Part shown: piece after piece, positions 6,324-21,012 of the stretch
Layout of the letters: each line of letters starts with the position of its first letter
Position numbering within the stretch: position 1 is the stretch's first letter
IMG/VR virus record: IMGVR_UViG_3300025138_013608
Coordinates: 1 to 34,978 of that record
Strand: one strand, 5' to 3'
DNA: 34,978 bases
DNA from: a virus
Translations under genes and position numbers: made by a program
The notes under the pieces: generated by a model
What the model saw: only the letters and a program-made list of their open reading frames with translations
Told to the model about the DNA's origin: nothing
Database searches by the model: none

Positions 6324-6783
6324 AGCAAAGCTGATACAGCTCATTCACATAGCAAAAGGGCAACTAGGGCTAGACGACGACACCTACCGCGCCGCATTAC
6401 TTGGCTCAGCGGGTAAAACGTCATGCAGCCAAATGAGTCTGTCAGAGCTAAACAAAGTGTTAGAACACTTTGAAAAAGCAGGGTTTAAAGCCAAGGCTAA
6501 ACGCCGTTTAAGCCCTAAATCATCAGCAAAGCAGCTAGGCGAAATAAACAAAATACGCGCAATTTGGATCAGCATGCACAAACAAAACATTGTACGTGAT
6601 GGCTCAGAAACCGCCCTAGATGCCTACGTAAACCGCATGTTAAACCGCGCAAAAGTGGGGGCAAACGTAAGTTATCACACCCAGTTTTTAACTCAACAAC
6701 AAGCGCTTAAAGTACTGGAGTCACTTAAGCAGTGGCAAAAGCGTGAATCGAACAAAGAGCAACCCAGAGGTAATAATGACTAA
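6316..6783 (+). CDS. gemA: GemA-like regulatory protein (Mu gp16, DUF1018)
   Basis: This 155-residue protein matches the gp16/GemA family, with an N-terminal LIQLIHIAKGQLGLDDDTYRAALL segment. A basic centre (KAKAKRRLSPKS) follows, then the helix INKIRAIWISMHKQNIVRDGSETALDAYVNRML. Mu GemA modulates host gene expression and DNA topology, and many members sit immediately before mor, as here. It overlaps the small gene upstream by eight bases and the Mor-family gene downstream by eight bases, both as ATGACTAA, so the three are probably translated in a coupled fashion. Confidence 0.9.
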   Translation: MTKAKLIQLIHIAKGQLGLDDDTYRAALLGSAGKTSCSQMSLSELNKVLEHFEKAGFKAKAKRRLSPKSSAKQLGEINKIRAIWISMHKQNIVRDGSETALDAYVNRMLNRAKVGANVSYHTQFLTQQQALKVLESLKQWQKRESNKEQPRGNND

Positions 6784-7201
6784 TCAAAAAGAACTCCAAT
6801 CAGAGCTGTTTGGCGAAAGCGTAGAGCAGTTGCAAGACTGCCTGAGCAAGTTATCTACCGAGGATGCAGCCGAAGTACGTAAACGCTGGCCTAGCAACCT
6901 ACAATCGCTTGCACTACTTATTGAGTCTCAGTTAACTAAAGCCAGTGTAAACAATCCGCAAGGGGTAGGCGAGGCCATAACCCTAGCAATAGGTCATTAC
7001 TTTGGTGGGCGCGACGTATACATACCCACAGACCAACGTCTAAAAGCCGCGCTGCGCGACATACAAATATGGCAAGAATATAAAGGCAACAACATCGAGC
7101 AGCTTGCCAATAAATTTAAACTAACAGAGCGGCGTATAGCTGAAATAATCCAGCACCAGCGCATTGTAGAAACCGAGCGCCGCCAAAGGAGACTATTTTA
7201 A
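6776..7201 (+). CDS. mor: Mor/C-family transcription activator
   Basis: The preferred start is the ATG at 6776, after AGAGG at 6766-6770, giving 141 residues. An in-frame GTG at 6743 is less likely. The C-terminal two thirds fit the Mor transcription activator family. The dimerisation part contains GEAITLAIGHYFGGRDVYIP, the family's conserved glycine-rich beta segment. It is followed by a helix-turn-helix (EYKGNNIEQLANKFKLTERRIAEII). In Mu, Mor activates the middle promoter and the related C protein activates the late ones. Only one member of the family is seen here, so this protein may itself act on the paired late elements at 10508 and 20965. The next gene starts immediately after its stop. 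Confidence 0.9.
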   Translation: MTNQKELQSELFGESVEQLQDCLSKLSTEDAAEVRKRWPSNLQSLALLIESQLTKASVNNPQGVGEAITLAIGHYFGGRDVYIPTDQRLKAALRDIQIWQEYKGNNIEQLANKFKLTERRIAEIIQHQRIVETERRQRRLF

Positions 7202-8007: not shown

Positions 8008-8844
8008 TTAAACTAAACTAGGTAAATTAATATTATTGGTAAGGTCCATCTCTTCCGATATGACTTTGGCTCTCAGGTCTAAAATCTCTAATACTCCGTC
8101 GTCTAAAAGCTCTACGAACGTACCAGGATAATCATAGGCATCGTTATCACACTCAACTACTCCTCTGTATGTAAACTCTTTCAAGATTTCGACTAGAAGT
8201 TCTTTGCTTAAATTATCGTCTCTATTTAAGAGTTCTGCGATATTGAGAGTTTTGCCATCGGTATTGTAAAGTGCTACTAAAACATCCAATTTACATAATT
8301 CTTTACTATTTAAGTGTTTGTTTAATAGATTTCGAGGAATTTCAGTTTCAAGCATTAAAGGTGTAAACATATTAAAACGTTTTTTTAATCTATCTAACTC
8401 ATTATTAAAGTCAGTCTGTAAGGCGTTCAAAGCTTCTTTAGTATCATCCAATTCTTGGCTTATTTTTCCTACGGTTTCAATATCATTATCAGAATAGCTC
8501 TTGTTAAGTGCTTCAACAGCTTTCTTAAAACGAAAGTCAATTTTAAAGCTCCATAAATTCAATTGGTTTGTAAAAATTTTTAAATACAGAGCGATTAAAG
8601 GGAGCAATATCGTAAAAGCAAACGCGCAAAATATTGGGTAGCCGAAATTATGAGCTATATTTGTATGGGTTTCGTTAACCCACTTAAATTTATAAAGCAT
8701 ATTTTCATCACTAAAAACTACAAATAAAACTGCTTTCCAATTAAAAATAAACCAAAATATAATTAGGCTACCTAAGATTGGGTGAGACAATCTCTCGTGC
8801 ATGGCTGTTTTAGTTGAGTTATAAACTTCTGATATTGAAGACAT
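8008..8844 (-). CDS. Two-TM membrane protein with coiled coil and winged-helix-like C-terminus (accessory)
   Basis: This 278-residue protein is read leftward. Two hydrophobic helices lie at about 24-45 (ILGSLIIFWFIFNWKAVLFVVF) and 70-90. A long charged helix follows at about 105-157, consistent with a coiled coil. The C-terminal part (about 185-258, LVALYNTDGKTLNIAELLNR onward to VELLDDGVLEIL) has a winged-helix-like pattern and would be cytoplasmic. The N-terminal HERLSHP-ILGSLIIFWFIFNW pattern resembles a widespread uncharacterised membrane family, from memory. The gene is divergent from the KAP NTPase, with only 52 bases between the starts, so the two probably share a control region. AT-rich composition sets it apart from phage core genes. 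Proposed role: membrane partner of the NTPase, possibly in anti-phage defence or exclusion. Function unproven. Confidence 0.75.
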   Translation of the reverse strand: MSSISEVYNSTKTAMHERLSHPILGSLIIFWFIFNWKAVLFVVFSDENMLYKFKWVNETHTNIAHNFGYPIFCAFAFTILLPLIALYLKIFTNQLNLWSFKIDFRFKKAVEALNKSYSDNDIETVGKISQELDDTKEALNALQTDFNNELDRLKKRFNMFTPLMLETEIPRNLLNKHLNSKELCKLDVLVALYNTDGKTLNIAELLNRDDNLSKELLVEILKEFTYRGVVECDNDAYDYPGTFVELLDDGVLEILDLRAKVISEEMDLTNNINLPSLV

Positions 8845-8896
8845 CCTAATTCCTTTTGTTTATAGTTATGCATGATTACAATAAAAGGGATATTAC
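8845..8896. promoter_or_regulatory. Divergent promoter of accessory cassette 1
   Basis: Only 52 AT-rich bases separate the start codons of the membrane protein (minus) and the KAP NTPase (plus). Each side has its own ribosome site: AAAGG near 8885-8889 on the plus strand and AAAGGA around 8850-8857 on the minus strand. TATAGT- and TATAAA-like hexamers occur in both directions. Any promoters here must overlap, which suggests joint regulation of the pair independent of the phage operons. Confidence 0.5.
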
Positions 8897-10510
8897 ATGA
8901 GTCGATTTAACTGGGATAGTGAAATACCCTTCCTCAAAGAGAAATTACCACCGGATCTGCTTGATAGAGCAAAGCATGCAAGCTTTCTCACTAAAACGAT
9001 CAATAATGAGGTAAATCCAAAAAGAGGGGGCGACATTAACAGTATTAAAAGTCACGTTTTGAACTTAAATGCTGATTGGGGAGCTGGCAAAACTTATTTT
9101 TTGAAGCGGTGGGCTCACTCATTAAAGCAAGACCATCCAGTCGTTTATATTGATGCATGGTCAACTGATTATCTAGAATCTCCTTTAATTACCGTGCTAA
9201 CTGAGTTGCTAGAACAATTAAAAGAGCAAACATCACTAAAAGACACTCAGTCTGCAATCGATAAAGCAAGTGATGTACTTAAAAAAGCAGCACCTAAAGT
9301 TGCAAGTGCTGTAATGAAAAAGTTTCTAGGTTTTGATTTAAGTGTTTTTTCATCTGATAGTGAAGCTGAAACAACAGACCCTAAATGTGATGATGCTAGC
9401 AAGCCAAGTGATAGTAAAAAAAATGAAATTAATTTTGCTGCTGCTGGTGAAGCGATACTTAGTCAATTTTATAGCGAACACAAAAGCCACAAACAAAATG
9501 TAGAAGCATTGAGTAAATCTATAAAAGATTGGGTAAAACTAGTTAAAGAAAACCCTTCAGATAAAAGTCGGACGGCCATAATAGACTATCCCGCCTATAT
9601 TTTTATTGATGAGTTAGATAGGTGTAAGCCAACTTATGCAGTAGAAATGCTAGAAGCAATAAAGCATGTTTTTGATATACCAGGGCTTGTTTTCATAGTG
9701 GCAACGAACACCAAAGAACTACAACACACTGTAAAAGCAGTATATGGAGTTGGCTTTAACGCTGAGTCATATTTAAATCGGTTCTTTGATAGTAAGTACT
9801 TTATAAGAACAAGTTTATCTGTAGAAATGCTATTAACACATTGTGAAACAAAATTTTTAGAGTTTGACTATTTAGATGATAAAAATGTGGTGCTTTTTCC
9901 GTTTGTTGAAGACACTAAAGAAAAGCTTTTAAGTTTTGCTGTGTCGTTGTTCAATGCTTTTGAACTGGCGCCCAGAGAGGCAATAAAAATAATTAATCGC
10001 TTGAAATTTTCTATCTTATCACTTGTAAATGTAAAAGTTGATATCAGTGTATTGTTAGTAATGATAACTTTATTGAGTCATAGTAAAGAAAAGTACGATA
10101 CATTTCTCTATGAAATTATTAATAATCAATACACAAATATCAGATTCAATACGAATTTATCTGAGTTACAAAAAGCTTTATCGAATGTGAAAATTAATAT
10201 TAGTAATGAAGAGCAGGAGAGCGAAATAGCTGAAAAGTCGCATGATATGGGGAAAATAATTTCAGGGTACCTTAAGTCTACCATTAGTTTTAATTTCGCA
10301 CATTATTTATCAGCGATTAGGAATAGGCAATATGGACCTTTCGAAACGTTAATTAATAGTTTAATCAGTAATCAGGGGAAGACCATAGGAGGTTCAGAGC
10401 CTGATTACGATTTGATGATTCGAATATCAAAGTGCTTTAACAACGTTGAAATAAATATAGAGAAATATAAAGATGTTGTTGAGTTAGCAAATAATCTTGA
10501 TATGGCGTAA
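8897..10510 (+). CDS. KAP-family P-loop NTPase (accessory, candidate defence)
   Basis: This 537-residue protein has KAP NTPase hallmarks. Walker A is NADWGAGKTYFLKRW with K65/T66, and KAP-like YIDAWSTDY follows at about 84-92. Walker B is YIFIDELDRCKP with D238/E239, then an arginine/sensor region (GLVFIVATNTKELQHTVKAVYG). KAP ATPases often carry membrane helices between Walker A and B. Here the 170-residue insert is mostly charged and low-complexity (about 150-175), with at best one weakly hydrophobic stretch (about 134-150), while the divergent neighbour supplies two TM helices. Family members include PifA of plasmid F (phage T7 exclusion) and QatA of the Qat defence system. The gene is AT-rich, lies between the middle and late operons, and ends next to the late element at 10508. 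Role in defence is inference. Confidence 0.85.
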   Translation: MSRFNWDSEIPFLKEKLPPDLLDRAKHASFLTKTINNEVNPKRGGDINSIKSHVLNLNADWGAGKTYFLKRWAHSLKQDHPVVYIDAWSTDYLESPLITVLTELLEQLKEQTSLKDTQSAIDKASDVLKKAAPKVASAVMKKFLGFDLSVFSSDSEAETTDPKCDDASKPSDSKKNEINFAAAGEAILSQFYSEHKSHKQNVEALSKSIKDWVKLVKENPSDKSRTAIIDYPAYIFIDELDRCKPTYAVEMLEAIKHVFDIPGLVFIVATNTKELQHTVKAVYGVGFNAESYLNRFFDSKYFIRTSLSVEMLLTHCETKFLEFDYLDDKNVVLFPFVEDTKEKLLSFAVSLFNAFELAPREAIKIINRLKFSILSLVNVKVDISVLLVMITLLSHSKEKYDTFLYEIINNQYTNIRFNTNLSELQKALSNVKINISNEEQESEIAEKSHDMGKIISGYLKSTISFNFAHYLSAIRNRQYGPFETLINSLISNQGKTIGGSEPDYDLMIRISKCFNNVEINIEKYKDVVELANNLDMA

Positions 10511-10556
10511 TTCCCGAAATCCCGCACGGCCACTAATAAAGCCTAATTAACCACAA
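10508..10556 (+). promoter_or_regulatory. Late promoter element of the lysis/head operon (Plys-like)
   Basis: TAATTCCCGAAA, two variable bases, then CCGCACGGCCA occupies 10508-10532. It recurs with 23/25 identity at 20965-20989. A -10-like TAATTA sits at 10544-10549, 33 bases after the TTCCC start, versus TAAATC 35 bases after it in the other copy. There is no -35 consensus, as expected for activator-dependent Mu late promoters. In Mu, Plys precedes lys and is activated by C. Here the Mor/C-family protein is the obvious candidate activator. Confidence 0.7.
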
Positions 10557-10584
10557 TACCGAAAAACAACAAGGTTTTTCGGTA
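10557..10584 (+). repeat. Hairpin abutting the endolysin start codon
   Basis: TACCGAAAAAC (10557-10567) and GTTTTTCGGTA (10574-10584) are perfect 11-bp arms with a six-base loop. The last base is the A of the start codon. The AAGG ribosome site (10571-10574) lies in the loop and first stem base. It would be at or near the 5' end of the late mRNA, so it may protect the transcript or control access to the endolysin start. Confidence 0.6.
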
Positions 10585-11177
10585 TGTCTCCAACCCTCAA
10601 TCTAACTTACTTTAAACAATCCCCTGAAGTGCAAGCTGCACTGGCCCCGTACTCGCTTAAATTTGCCCAGTGCATATTACCTATCTTGTATTTGGAGGGA
10701 GGCTTGCGCAGCGATGGTGGGTTAAATAACGTAGCATCAGACCGTGGCGGCCTTACCAAATACGGCATAAGCCAGCGCGCTTACCCAACGGTAGATATTA
10801 AAAACCTAACGCTTGCTAAAGCGCTAAGCCTGTATCATCGTGATTATTGGCACGCCATGCACTGCGAGCAAAGCCCCGCAGGGGTTGACTTTATGCTGCT
10901 AGATGGCGCAGTACAGCACGGCGCACCCGCCATGACCCAATTAACCCAGCGATTAGTCAACTCAAAGCCCGATGGTCGCATGGGGCCAAAAACCCTAGCC
11001 GCTATCCTACAGCGTCAAGCCCTTAGCCTAACCGTATTGCTCAGCGTAAACCGTGGCCGAAAGTACGCCCGCATTTGTGCAAACGACTCAAGCCAAAAAC
11101 CAAACCTAGAGGGCTGGTATAACCGCTTAGCCCACGTAACCGAATTTGCAGTAAACCAGCTAAGCGGGGTGGCCTAA
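10584..11177 (+). CDS. lys: Endolysin, GH108-type N-acetylmuramidase
   Basis: This 197-residue protein matches the glycoside hydrolase 108 (ZliS-like) lysozyme family. The catalytic glutamate is E38 in LYLEGGLRSDGG, and the SDRGGLTKYGIS motif lies at about 52-63. A C-terminal peptidoglycan-binding type 3 domain follows (GPKTLAAILQ... to LEGWYNRLAHV). It degrades peptidoglycan at the end of the lytic cycle. No clear secretory signal is seen, so it should depend on the holin two genes downstream. It is the first gene of the late operon, behind the promoter element and hairpin, and its stop overlaps the next start (TAATG). Confidence 0.92.
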   Translation: MSPTLNLTYFKQSPEVQAALAPYSLKFAQCILPILYLEGGLRSDGGLNNVASDRGGLTKYGISQRAYPTVDIKNLTLAKALSLYHRDYWHAMHCEQSPAGVDFMLLDGAVQHGAPAMTQLTQRLVNSKPDGRMGPKTLAAILQRQALSLTVLLSVNRGRKYARICANDSSQKPNLEGWYNRLAHVTEFAVNQLSGVA

Positions 11178-19001: not shown

Positions 19002-20306
19002 ATGGAAAAACTAAAGAATATAAACAGAAGATTGTCTAAACTTAGCGAATTCATCGAAAGAATTAATAAATCGAGTCTTAGGGAGTTAGATTTAGATGGC
19101 TTCGGTCGTTTTATCAAAAAATTGGAACGTTTATATGGTGATATGGATTTAGATGTAAATCAACATTTAATACCTTTTACACAAGATGGAGAGCTTGCTG
19201 ATACACCCGGTACAGAACAATTTAACAAGTACGTTATTGAGACTTATGAATCTAAGATAAAAGTAGTGAGTGATAAGTTAAAAGGCATGCAAAATGCCTG
19301 TAAGAACTTTAGTAAAGAATATAGAAATGCATTAGAACTTAACGCTGATTTATCCAACTCAGGCTTTAATATTTTAAATGATTTTTCAGGATATTTGAGT
19401 ACCTTAAGTGAGTGGGCAAACTCAGAATTGGAGCTAATAAGTTTGGCTGAGGATATAGGTTTAGCTGAATCAGAAGGTGAATACAGTCACTTACTAGAGC
19501 AATCCAATATAAGACAATTAGAAGTACTGAAAGAATTTAAACTTCTTTCGAGAAAAGAAATAGAACTATTTGCTGAGCATGGGCAAAAAAGCTTAGACAA
19601 GTTATTCAATAGAGCACAGGAAAGAACGGAAATCATAAATGCAAATACTTCTAAACAAGAAATTGAATTGCGAGAGTTAAATGATAAAGTTGAGACTCTA
19701 GAAAAAAAATACAATGAGCAAGTTGCTAGAGCCGATTCAATTTATCAAAATGGCCTAAAAGATGTAACTAGGAAAAAATCTGAAATTGAAGGCTTCTTGG
19801 GTGAAGCGAGTAATCGAATTATGGCTCAAGATTACGATACAAGTGCTTTAAGTGAAAAAGAAGCCGCTAATTGGTTAAGATATGGCTCACTTGCCTGTAT
19901 GGCTGTAATCATTATTATAGTTTGCTATTCATTTTATGATTCAACTCATTCAGGTTTTGATTGGGAAAGCTCAATCTTCAGAACAGTGCTAGTGTTTATT
20001 CTATCAATACCTGCAGCATACCTCTCAAGAGAGTCGACTAAACACCGCGAACAGCAATATAACTACCATCATACGGCATTAGATTTAAAAGCAATCACAC
20101 CTTATATTGCATCGCTTCCAGAAGCAGACCAAAATAGAATTAAAATTTCAATTGCTGAGCGTATTTTTGCTTCAAGGCAAACCAATGTAGCTCAACAAGA
20201 CAGTTTTCCTTTAAATACACAAGAATTGATGATGGAGCTTATAAAAAAGGTCGACTTTAAAAAAGAAGACAAAAAAAACACACAAGTTGAAAACGCGGGG
20301 AAGTAG
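19002..20306 (+). CDS. Coiled-coil two-TM protein (accessory cassette 2)
   Basis: This 434-residue protein is of no family I can name. Residues 1-290 are almost entirely helical and charged, with a strong coiled coil at about 200-265. Two membrane helices follow at about 293-312 (YGSLACMAVIIIIVCYSF) and about 325-343. The C-terminal cytoplasmic part contains YHHTALDLKAITPYIASLP, a helical segment that I recall from other uncharacterised membrane proteins near mobile elements. It interrupts the Mu order gpG-gpI, is AT-rich and lacks a good ribosome site (GGTG only). With gpG just upstream it could be read from the late transcript. Candidate superinfection-exclusion or defence protein, without direct evidence. 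Confidence 0.7.
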   Translation: MEKLKNINRRLSKLSEFIERINKSSLRELDLDGFGRFIKKLERLYGDMDLDVNQHLIPFTQDGELADTPGTEQFNKYVIETYESKIKVVSDKLKGMQNACKNFSKEYRNALELNADLSNSGFNILNDFSGYLSTLSEWANSELELISLAEDIGLAESEGEYSHLLEQSNIRQLEVLKEFKLLSRKEIELFAEHGQKSLDKLFNRAQERTEIINANTSKQEIELRELNDKVETLEKKYNEQVARADSIYQNGLKDVTRKKSEIEGFLGEASNRIMAQDYDTSALSEKEAANWLRYGSLACMAVIIIIVCYSFYDSTHSGFDWESSIFRTVLVFILSIPAAYLSRESTKHREQQYNYHHTALDLKAITPYIASLPEADQNRIKISIAERIFASRQTNVAQQDSFPLNTQELMMELIKKVDFKKEDKKNTQVENAGK

Positions 20307-20964: not shown

Positions 20965-21012
20965 TAATTCCCGAAACACCGCACGGCCAACCAATTCAAA
21001 TCTAAATCCATA
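20965..21012 (+). promoter_or_regulatory. Late promoter element of the gpI operon (PI-like)
   Basis: Second copy of the 25-bp element (20965-20989), differing from the copy at 10508 only at the two central positions. A -10-like TAAATC lies at 21003-21008, and the hairpin begins at 21013. Mu has its PI promoter at exactly this place in gene order, before gene I. Expected to be activated by the Mor/C-family protein. Confidence 0.7.

Follow-up and report, generated by a model that had tools for sequence, protein, structure and literature searches.

The window analysed here, a single IMG/VR virus record (IMGVR_UViG_3300025138_013608) taken at its whole length of 34,978 bases, displays a Mu-type gene order: repressor, MuA-like transposase, MuB-like ATPase, Mor activator, endolysin, terminase, portal, and head and tail genes. 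Close relatives of this phage sit in the genomes of Pseudoalteromonas prydzensis and P. shioyasakiensis; hence, its host is very probably a marine Pseudoalteromonas. The Mor-like protein is encoded at 6743-7201. A variable slot between the genes for Mor and the endolysin is occupied by two divergently transcribed genes with 52 bases between them: one of 278 aa on the minus strand (8008-8844) and one of 537 aa on the plus strand (8897-10510). These genes, and their AT-richness (GC of 31.7% and 33.6% respectively, against 43.7% for the whole window), are as given in a preliminary description of this DNA. We use "TM2" as a working name for the membrane protein encoded at 8008-8844 and for its family, and "KAP" for the NTPase encoded at 8897-10510. 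The features of the locus, together with a related site further downstream, are as follows:

8008-8844, minus strand: TM2 gene, 278 aa, with a predicted two-TM hairpin, coiled coil and winged helix (ORF list, family comparison, AlphaFold2 and fold matches)
8050-8307, minus strand: predicted C-terminal winged helix of TM2, residues about 180-265 (AlphaFold2; MarR/PadR fold matches)
8602-8658, minus strand: second TM helix of TM2, residues 63-81 (Kyte-Doolittle 1.55; helix in the AlphaFold2 model)
8713-8769, minus strand: first TM helix of TM2, residues 26-44 (Kyte-Doolittle 2.08; helix in the AlphaFold2 model)
8845-8896, no strand: 52-bp intergenic stretch, largely conserved in four phages; each gene has an RBS-like site here, and the core, TTTATAGTTATG, is AT-rich
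8897-10510, plus strand: KAP-family NTPase of the PDC-S20 type, 537 aa (Pfam 4.6e-37; PDC-S20 1.2e-74; phrog_8614 5.9e-62; RdrA-like fold)
9089-9091, plus strand: Walker A lysine K65 (invariant in 31 aligned sequences)
9608-9613, plus strand: Walker B D238/E239 (invariant in 31 aligned sequences)
9812-10507, plus strand: hypervariable C-terminal part of KAP, residues 306-537 (identity comparison with L029/L026 and L046)
10511-10532, plus strand: conserved 22-bp motif, TTCCCGAAAtCCCGCACGGCCA, at the right edge of the slot and abutting the KAP stop codon; found upstream of the endolysin in nearly all close relatives
10556-10585, plus strand: perfect 12-bp inverted repeat running into the endolysin start codon; conserved in relatives
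20968-20989, plus strand: second copy of the 22-bp motif, preceding the gene of the head maturation protease and closing a second cargo slot on its right (motif search; conservation)

The KAP protein scores 128.3 bits against the Pfam KAP_NTPase model (PF07693; gathering cut-off 20). Its best PADLOC profile is PDC-S20 (residues 20-429), the next family, PifA, following at 2.8e-13; by profile match it is thus a member of PDC-S20, a candidate defence family of PADLOC. The Walker A (W61-G62..G64-K65) and Walker B motifs are unvarying across the aligned KAP sequences, and the catalytic motifs that the preliminary description had taken to be intact are indeed so. Likewise, its account of the insert between them as charged and devoid of a convincing TM pair holds: the top 19-residue Kyte-Doolittle mean in the insert is 1.01, with no TM segment, residues 100-230 are 32% charged, and the AlphaFold2 model places long soluble helices at 114-144 and 180-218, with a disordered stretch at 146-191. 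A membrane anchor formed by an amphipathic helix at 114-144 was considered and set aside as unconvincing (moment 0.57 but mean hydrophobicity -0.2).

Certain bacterial KAP members and, as far as is known, all animal ones have TM helices within the NTPase domain, but such helices are not required. A KAP profile scan of IMG/VR recovered 312 relatives, of which 80 were kept, and 91 non-redundant KAPs were analysed for TM segments: a single one has at least two within the first 290 residues and the other 90 do not. Most KAP-family proteins examined are without a membrane-protein neighbour, and, as far as their sequences indicate, KAPs of the PDC-S20 type are soluble and solitary as a rule. A general pairing of PDC-S20 with an upstream membrane protein was tried and rejected: 11 of 69 neighbours have at least two TM segments against a background of 8.4%, but four of these represent one repeated transporter neighbourhood. 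Among the downstream neighbours none of 71 has two or more TM segments.

Comparison of the KAP model with solved folds gave as the best match RdrA of RADAR (VIA Z 18.4 over 316 residues, rmsd 7.1, 14% identity), with further matches to BrxC of BREX (Z about 13) and ORC/Cdc6 (Z 12-13); the KAP profile found no match at 0.01 among solved sequences. Within the lineage the two parts of the protein evolve differently: residues 1-305 are 93% identical between the window and L026/L029, whereas residues 306-537 are only 45-47% identical, DNA identity falling likewise across the C-terminal part, and the last dozen or so residues are conserved again in most lineage members. Between the window and L046 the C-terminal part is 78% and the NTPase part 86% identical. 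This pattern suggests a constant motor joined to a fast-changing C-terminal part that might serve in recognition.

For TM2, the two TM helices, coiled coil and winged-helix-like domain previously ascribed to this gene were all recovered by Kyte-Doolittle analysis, AlphaFold2 and fold matches. The model displays long helices at residues 63-117 and 124-166, followed by a winged helix at 180-265 (mean pLDDT 82), which matches MarR/PadR winged helices with a best Z of about 11 (e.g. 4b8x, 91 residues, rmsd 3.9). Accordingly modelled, the C-terminal domain, taken as model residues 170-265, is predicted to be of the MarR/PadR-type winged-helix fold, with DNA binding a putative activity. In charge counts the C-terminal side is positive, and therefore the coiled coil and winged helix are probably cytoplasmic. 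The most conserved region is the N-terminal hairpin, with the motif P..G.FI.SW..FNW and with P22, W31, N35, W36 and P70 invariant in 21 members; in the lineage comparison variation is greater outside the hairpin than within it. The C-terminal part differs by member: many enterobacterial phage members have only the coiled coil, several Bacteroidota members also have the winged helix (by sequence reading), and members of about 430-450 residues have a long, different C-terminal domain.

No Pfam or PADLOC family was found for TM2 when 21 members were compared with Pfam and 20 with PADLOC: these comparisons, made also with a view to known superinfection-exclusion proteins such as SieB, returned coiled-coil noise only, as did a search of solved sequences with TM2. 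PADLOC matches to LmuB, JetC, DruC and PbeC, together with the Pfam matches, were discarded as weak and scattered coiled-coil matches. In PHROGs TM2 is split over several families of unknown function. The family extends over at least three phyla, with members in Pseudomonadota, Bacteroidota and Leptospira. Phages of Klebsiella and of the E. coli type have it as a single gene, placed against or facing the late operon and next to the terminase or near cI. Among its genomic neighbours are AbiEi/AbiEii and a Fic protein; judged by sequence reading, recombinases and proteins of AbiH-like, TIR-like and HNH type are found there too. One E. coli member (L006, 2104-2922) has a close relative in 55 of 5,426 complete E. 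coli genomes (~1%), where it is annotated as 'hypothetical protein' and often adjoins the terminase.

The divergent pair, with TM2 on the minus and KAP on the plus strand, is present in six phages of the lineage: the window, L026 (the same phage as L002), L029 (the same as L003, with the same sequence in P. prydzensis at L045), L027, L032 and L046 (which has a broken contig end). All six have the same orientation and a short spacing (roughly 50-90 bp) despite strong divergence. Because it recurs in six phages, among which identity to the window proteins drops to 23% for TM2 and 40% for KAP, the pair is a genuine unit of cargo that recurs, and not a chance arrangement. In a survey of 20 slots TM2 and KAP occur together six times and each alone once (Fisher p 0.0012, which overstates the evidence, these phages being kin), so that six of the seven KAP slots also have TM2. 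The slot with KAP alone belongs to L019, whose KAP is of the same subfamily and whose 34.7-kb record has no TM2 anywhere; in L025 (4270-6957) TM2 has the same place and orientation and is divergent from a PDC-S49 NTPase (PDC-S49 profile E 2.3e-22), i.e. the NTPase has been exchanged with TM2 kept. Both genes exchange independently, as seen in L019, L025 and L026. In the first clade of the lineage the variable parts of KAP and TM2 do not vary together (rho -0.09 over only 6 pairs); a correlation of 0.71 over all 15 pairs was rejected, for it reflects the two clades.

Outside this lineage, among the 91 non-redundant KAPs, adjacency of TM2 and KAP was seen only twice: in L194, where they are co-directional and 144 bp apart, and in G064, another Pseudoalteromonas genome, where TM2 precedes KAP in an operon with 4-bp spacing. 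This adjacency has thus arisen in at least three layouts. The G064 operon (L274, 5946-10677 of contig 54) adjoins the paired genes AbiEi/AbiEii, and a Fic gene lies upstream, the whole forming a small defence island. Across 108 Pseudoalteromonas genomes KAP is present in 30 and TM2 in nine, and the two are adjacent in three. In 395 order-level and 369 class-level genomes we found 25 TM2 genomes besides the known one; a KAP lies within about 1.5 kb of TM2 at none of these 25 sampled loci, a few of which are short or partial. PDC-S49 is likewise beside TM2 in none of nine other Pseudoalteromonas genomes; elsewhere in this genus (L275, 316-3225) a PDC-S49-like NTPase has, by sequence reading, a SLATT-looking membrane protein downstream. 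Each family is mostly solitary, and each occurs alone in many genomes. A co-occurrence search, which the preliminary description had named as a check on the pairing, gave a divided answer: the divergent pair recurs in the lineage and in two further adjacencies, and no KAP stands beside the sampled TM2 loci. Since L019, L025 and the wider surveys show each gene without the other, neither needs the other to be kept.

The pair had also been described as interrupting a conserved phage gene order. The flanking Mor and endolysin genes are conserved, but because nearly all related phages have some cargo between them (unlike cargos occupy the slot in L028, L030, L017 and L037), the slot is a hotspot and not a unique interruption. 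Its right edge carries the 22-bp motif, which occurs at exactly two places in the window against none expected in shuffles. Each copy is followed, about 75 bp downstream, by a late gene (that of the endolysin or of the head maturation protease) and marks the right-hand end of a low-GC cargo region; in relatives both positions retain the motif. The late promoters of phage Mu, Plys and PI, precede lys and gene I; by this analogy the motif is most simply understood as a putative late-activator site, and we consider it probably to be the site of a late-promoter activator. In the intergenic stretch a promoter-like AAGACA-17-TATAGT is directed towards KAP (8838-8866), its -35-like hexamer AAGACA overlapping the TM2 start codon. 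A consensus promoter scan gave 15 sites against 13.2 expected in shuffles, with no excess, and it is therefore conservation that points to promoter function here. Morons have their own promoters (PMC4378225), and the cargo, being placed just outside the late units, would similarly need its own.

Several known systems share elements with this pair. PDC-S20 is listed in PADLOC as a single-gene candidate; the KAP reported here matches the profile of this soluble type, which is borne on phages and plasmids, but has a divergent membrane-protein neighbour. In RADAR the ring NTPase RdrA is accompanied by an optional, exchangeable small membrane protein, SLATT or Csx27 (PMC11676413). The likeness lies in the RdrA-like NTPase fold of the KAP model, a similarity of fold only: KAP is much shorter than RdrA, with the low identity noted above, it has no RdrB adenosine deaminase next to it (the neighbours being Mor, small genes and the endolysin), and TM2 has no SLATT match. 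RADAR is thus the closest working analogy, as an NTPase with an optional membrane protein, and KAP/TM2 is not RADAR. Tmn, a single-gene defence, is a KAP NTPase that itself carries two TM segments (PMC11846954); the KAP family is common to both, but the NTPase here is without a TM segment. With QatA (of qatABCD; PMC13279940) and PifA of plasmid F the KAP domain is shared, with weak profile matches of 1e-12 to 1e-13; for QatA the score is 52.3 bits against an equivalog cut-off of 600, and the neighbours are TM2 and phage genes in place of QatB, QatC and QatD. By the tests applied KAP is not QatA, PifA or Tmn. A further two-gene prophage pair is RexAB, of which we know no NTPase component, and with which we claim a likeness in layout and no sequence relation. 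RexAB-type prophage exclusion combines a cytoplasmic sensor with a membrane protein (PMC12894663).

The preliminary description had interpreted the two genes as a split membrane-tethered NTPase, the neighbour supplying the TM helices missing from the insert. What stands of this is the recurring cargo pair, the membership of KAP in a defence-candidate family and the TM2-KAP operon beside AbiEi/AbiEii; the argument from the missing helices fails, because nearly the whole KAP subfamily is without a TM segment. Were TM2 and KAP nonetheless to form a two-protein complex, with TM2 as its membrane subunit in place of a Tmn-like TM insert (PMC11846954) and both genes needed, the divergent pair of the six phages and the co-directional adjacencies of L194 and G064 would be accounted for; the KAP without TM2 in L019, the normally soluble and solitary state of KAPs, the 25 TM2 loci without a neighbouring KAP and the finding that the variable parts do not co-vary within the lineage speak against it, and we consider it unlikely. 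At the other extreme, two functionally unlinked cargo genes might simply have gathered in one hotspot, as the many other cargos of the slot and the independent exchange of both genes would allow; since the shared orientation and spacing of all six pairs, the presence of TM2 in most KAP slots and the tight operon of G064 oppose it, we likewise regard this as a doubtful explanation.

It is also conceivable that TM2 is a membrane-anchored transcription regulator whose MarR-like winged helix binds the divergent promoter region and frees KAP expression upon disturbance of the membrane by infection. The winged helix fold, the probably cytoplasmic C-terminal side and the layout around a conserved short promoter region are compatible with this, but in many members of the family the C-terminal part is another one or the coiled coil only, many have no divergent partner, and L025 retains the TM2 side with another NTPase, making such a role quite improbable. 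As the genes are paired in this lineage and usually apart elsewhere, they probably help the prophage exclude rival phages, as opposed to being two halves of one machine. The best explanation, to which we give about an even chance, is a lysogenic-conversion ('moron') cassette, in which two anti-phage genes, each mobile on its own, share an accessory slot of Mu-like Pseudoalteromonas phages. The membership of KAP in PDC-S20, its RdrA-like fold, the AbiE and Fic neighbours of TM2, the low GC and the ending of the slot at a conserved motif all favour it. Against it, the retention of the divergent layout over deep divergence and the 4-bp-spaced operon elsewhere suggest more than mere co-residence.

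From the observed genes, family relations, slot and recurrence of the pair, we infer that a moron cassette of this kind might act as follows. In the lysogen both proteins would be made from their own short divergent promoter region, possibly with co-expression. KAP would form an RdrA-like AAA+ ring, in which the hypervariable C-terminal part may recognise something from the incoming phage and the constant NTPase part respond. TM2 would be an inner-membrane protein whose coiled coil and winged helix face the cytoplasm, and would act at that site, probably by blocking or aborting superinfection. The two would be co-kept because they protect the same prophage, and cooperation between them is possible, although neither would depend on the other for retention. 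More tentatively, as a possibility that we lean against, TM2 may represent an unrecognised, widespread exclusion family borne on prophages and islands of Pseudomonadota, Bacteroidota and Leptospira, with an exchangeable C-terminal module, working alone or attached to one or another defence NTPase (PDC-S20, in two layouts, and PDC-S49).

Phage exclusion repeatedly involves KAP NTPases, as with PifA, Tmn and QatA, and how they sense phages and whether they need the membrane are questions on which this lineage bears: it is a natural swap series, in which one slot carries KAP with TM2, KAP without TM2, or TM2 with another NTPase. Similarly, KAPs with a 93% identical NTPase part but strongly diverged C-terminal parts bear on which part sets phage specificity. 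This swap series, for a defence NTPase that is poorly understood, and the unnamed membrane family TM2 together make a modest find, but a useful one.

Other cargos of these phages are also of note. A second low-GC cargo gene of the window (19002-20306, 434 aa) is flanked by a tail-completion gene and by that of the head maturation protease; its product has two TM segments, around 290-340, and a weak SLATT match. In related phages its C-terminal half is about 75% identical and its N-terminal half diverges. Its position is that in which anti-CRISPR loci sit in Mu-like Pseudomonas phages. A relationship to the 434-aa membrane protein beside KAP in L144 was considered and dropped, the two having no similarity. 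In the slot between Mor and the endolysin, L028 (4565-6924) and L030 (4736-6916) have other three-gene cargos with no clear Pfam or PADLOC match, which are candidates for new anti-phage systems. A two-gene cargo also recurs in this slot, encoding a protein of 89 aa and a coiled-coil protein of 175-191 aa (L023, 2993-3834; L037, 5422-6263; L019, 4483-5276); the coiled-coil protein has one TM segment in L019, and the cargo is once upstream of a KAP.
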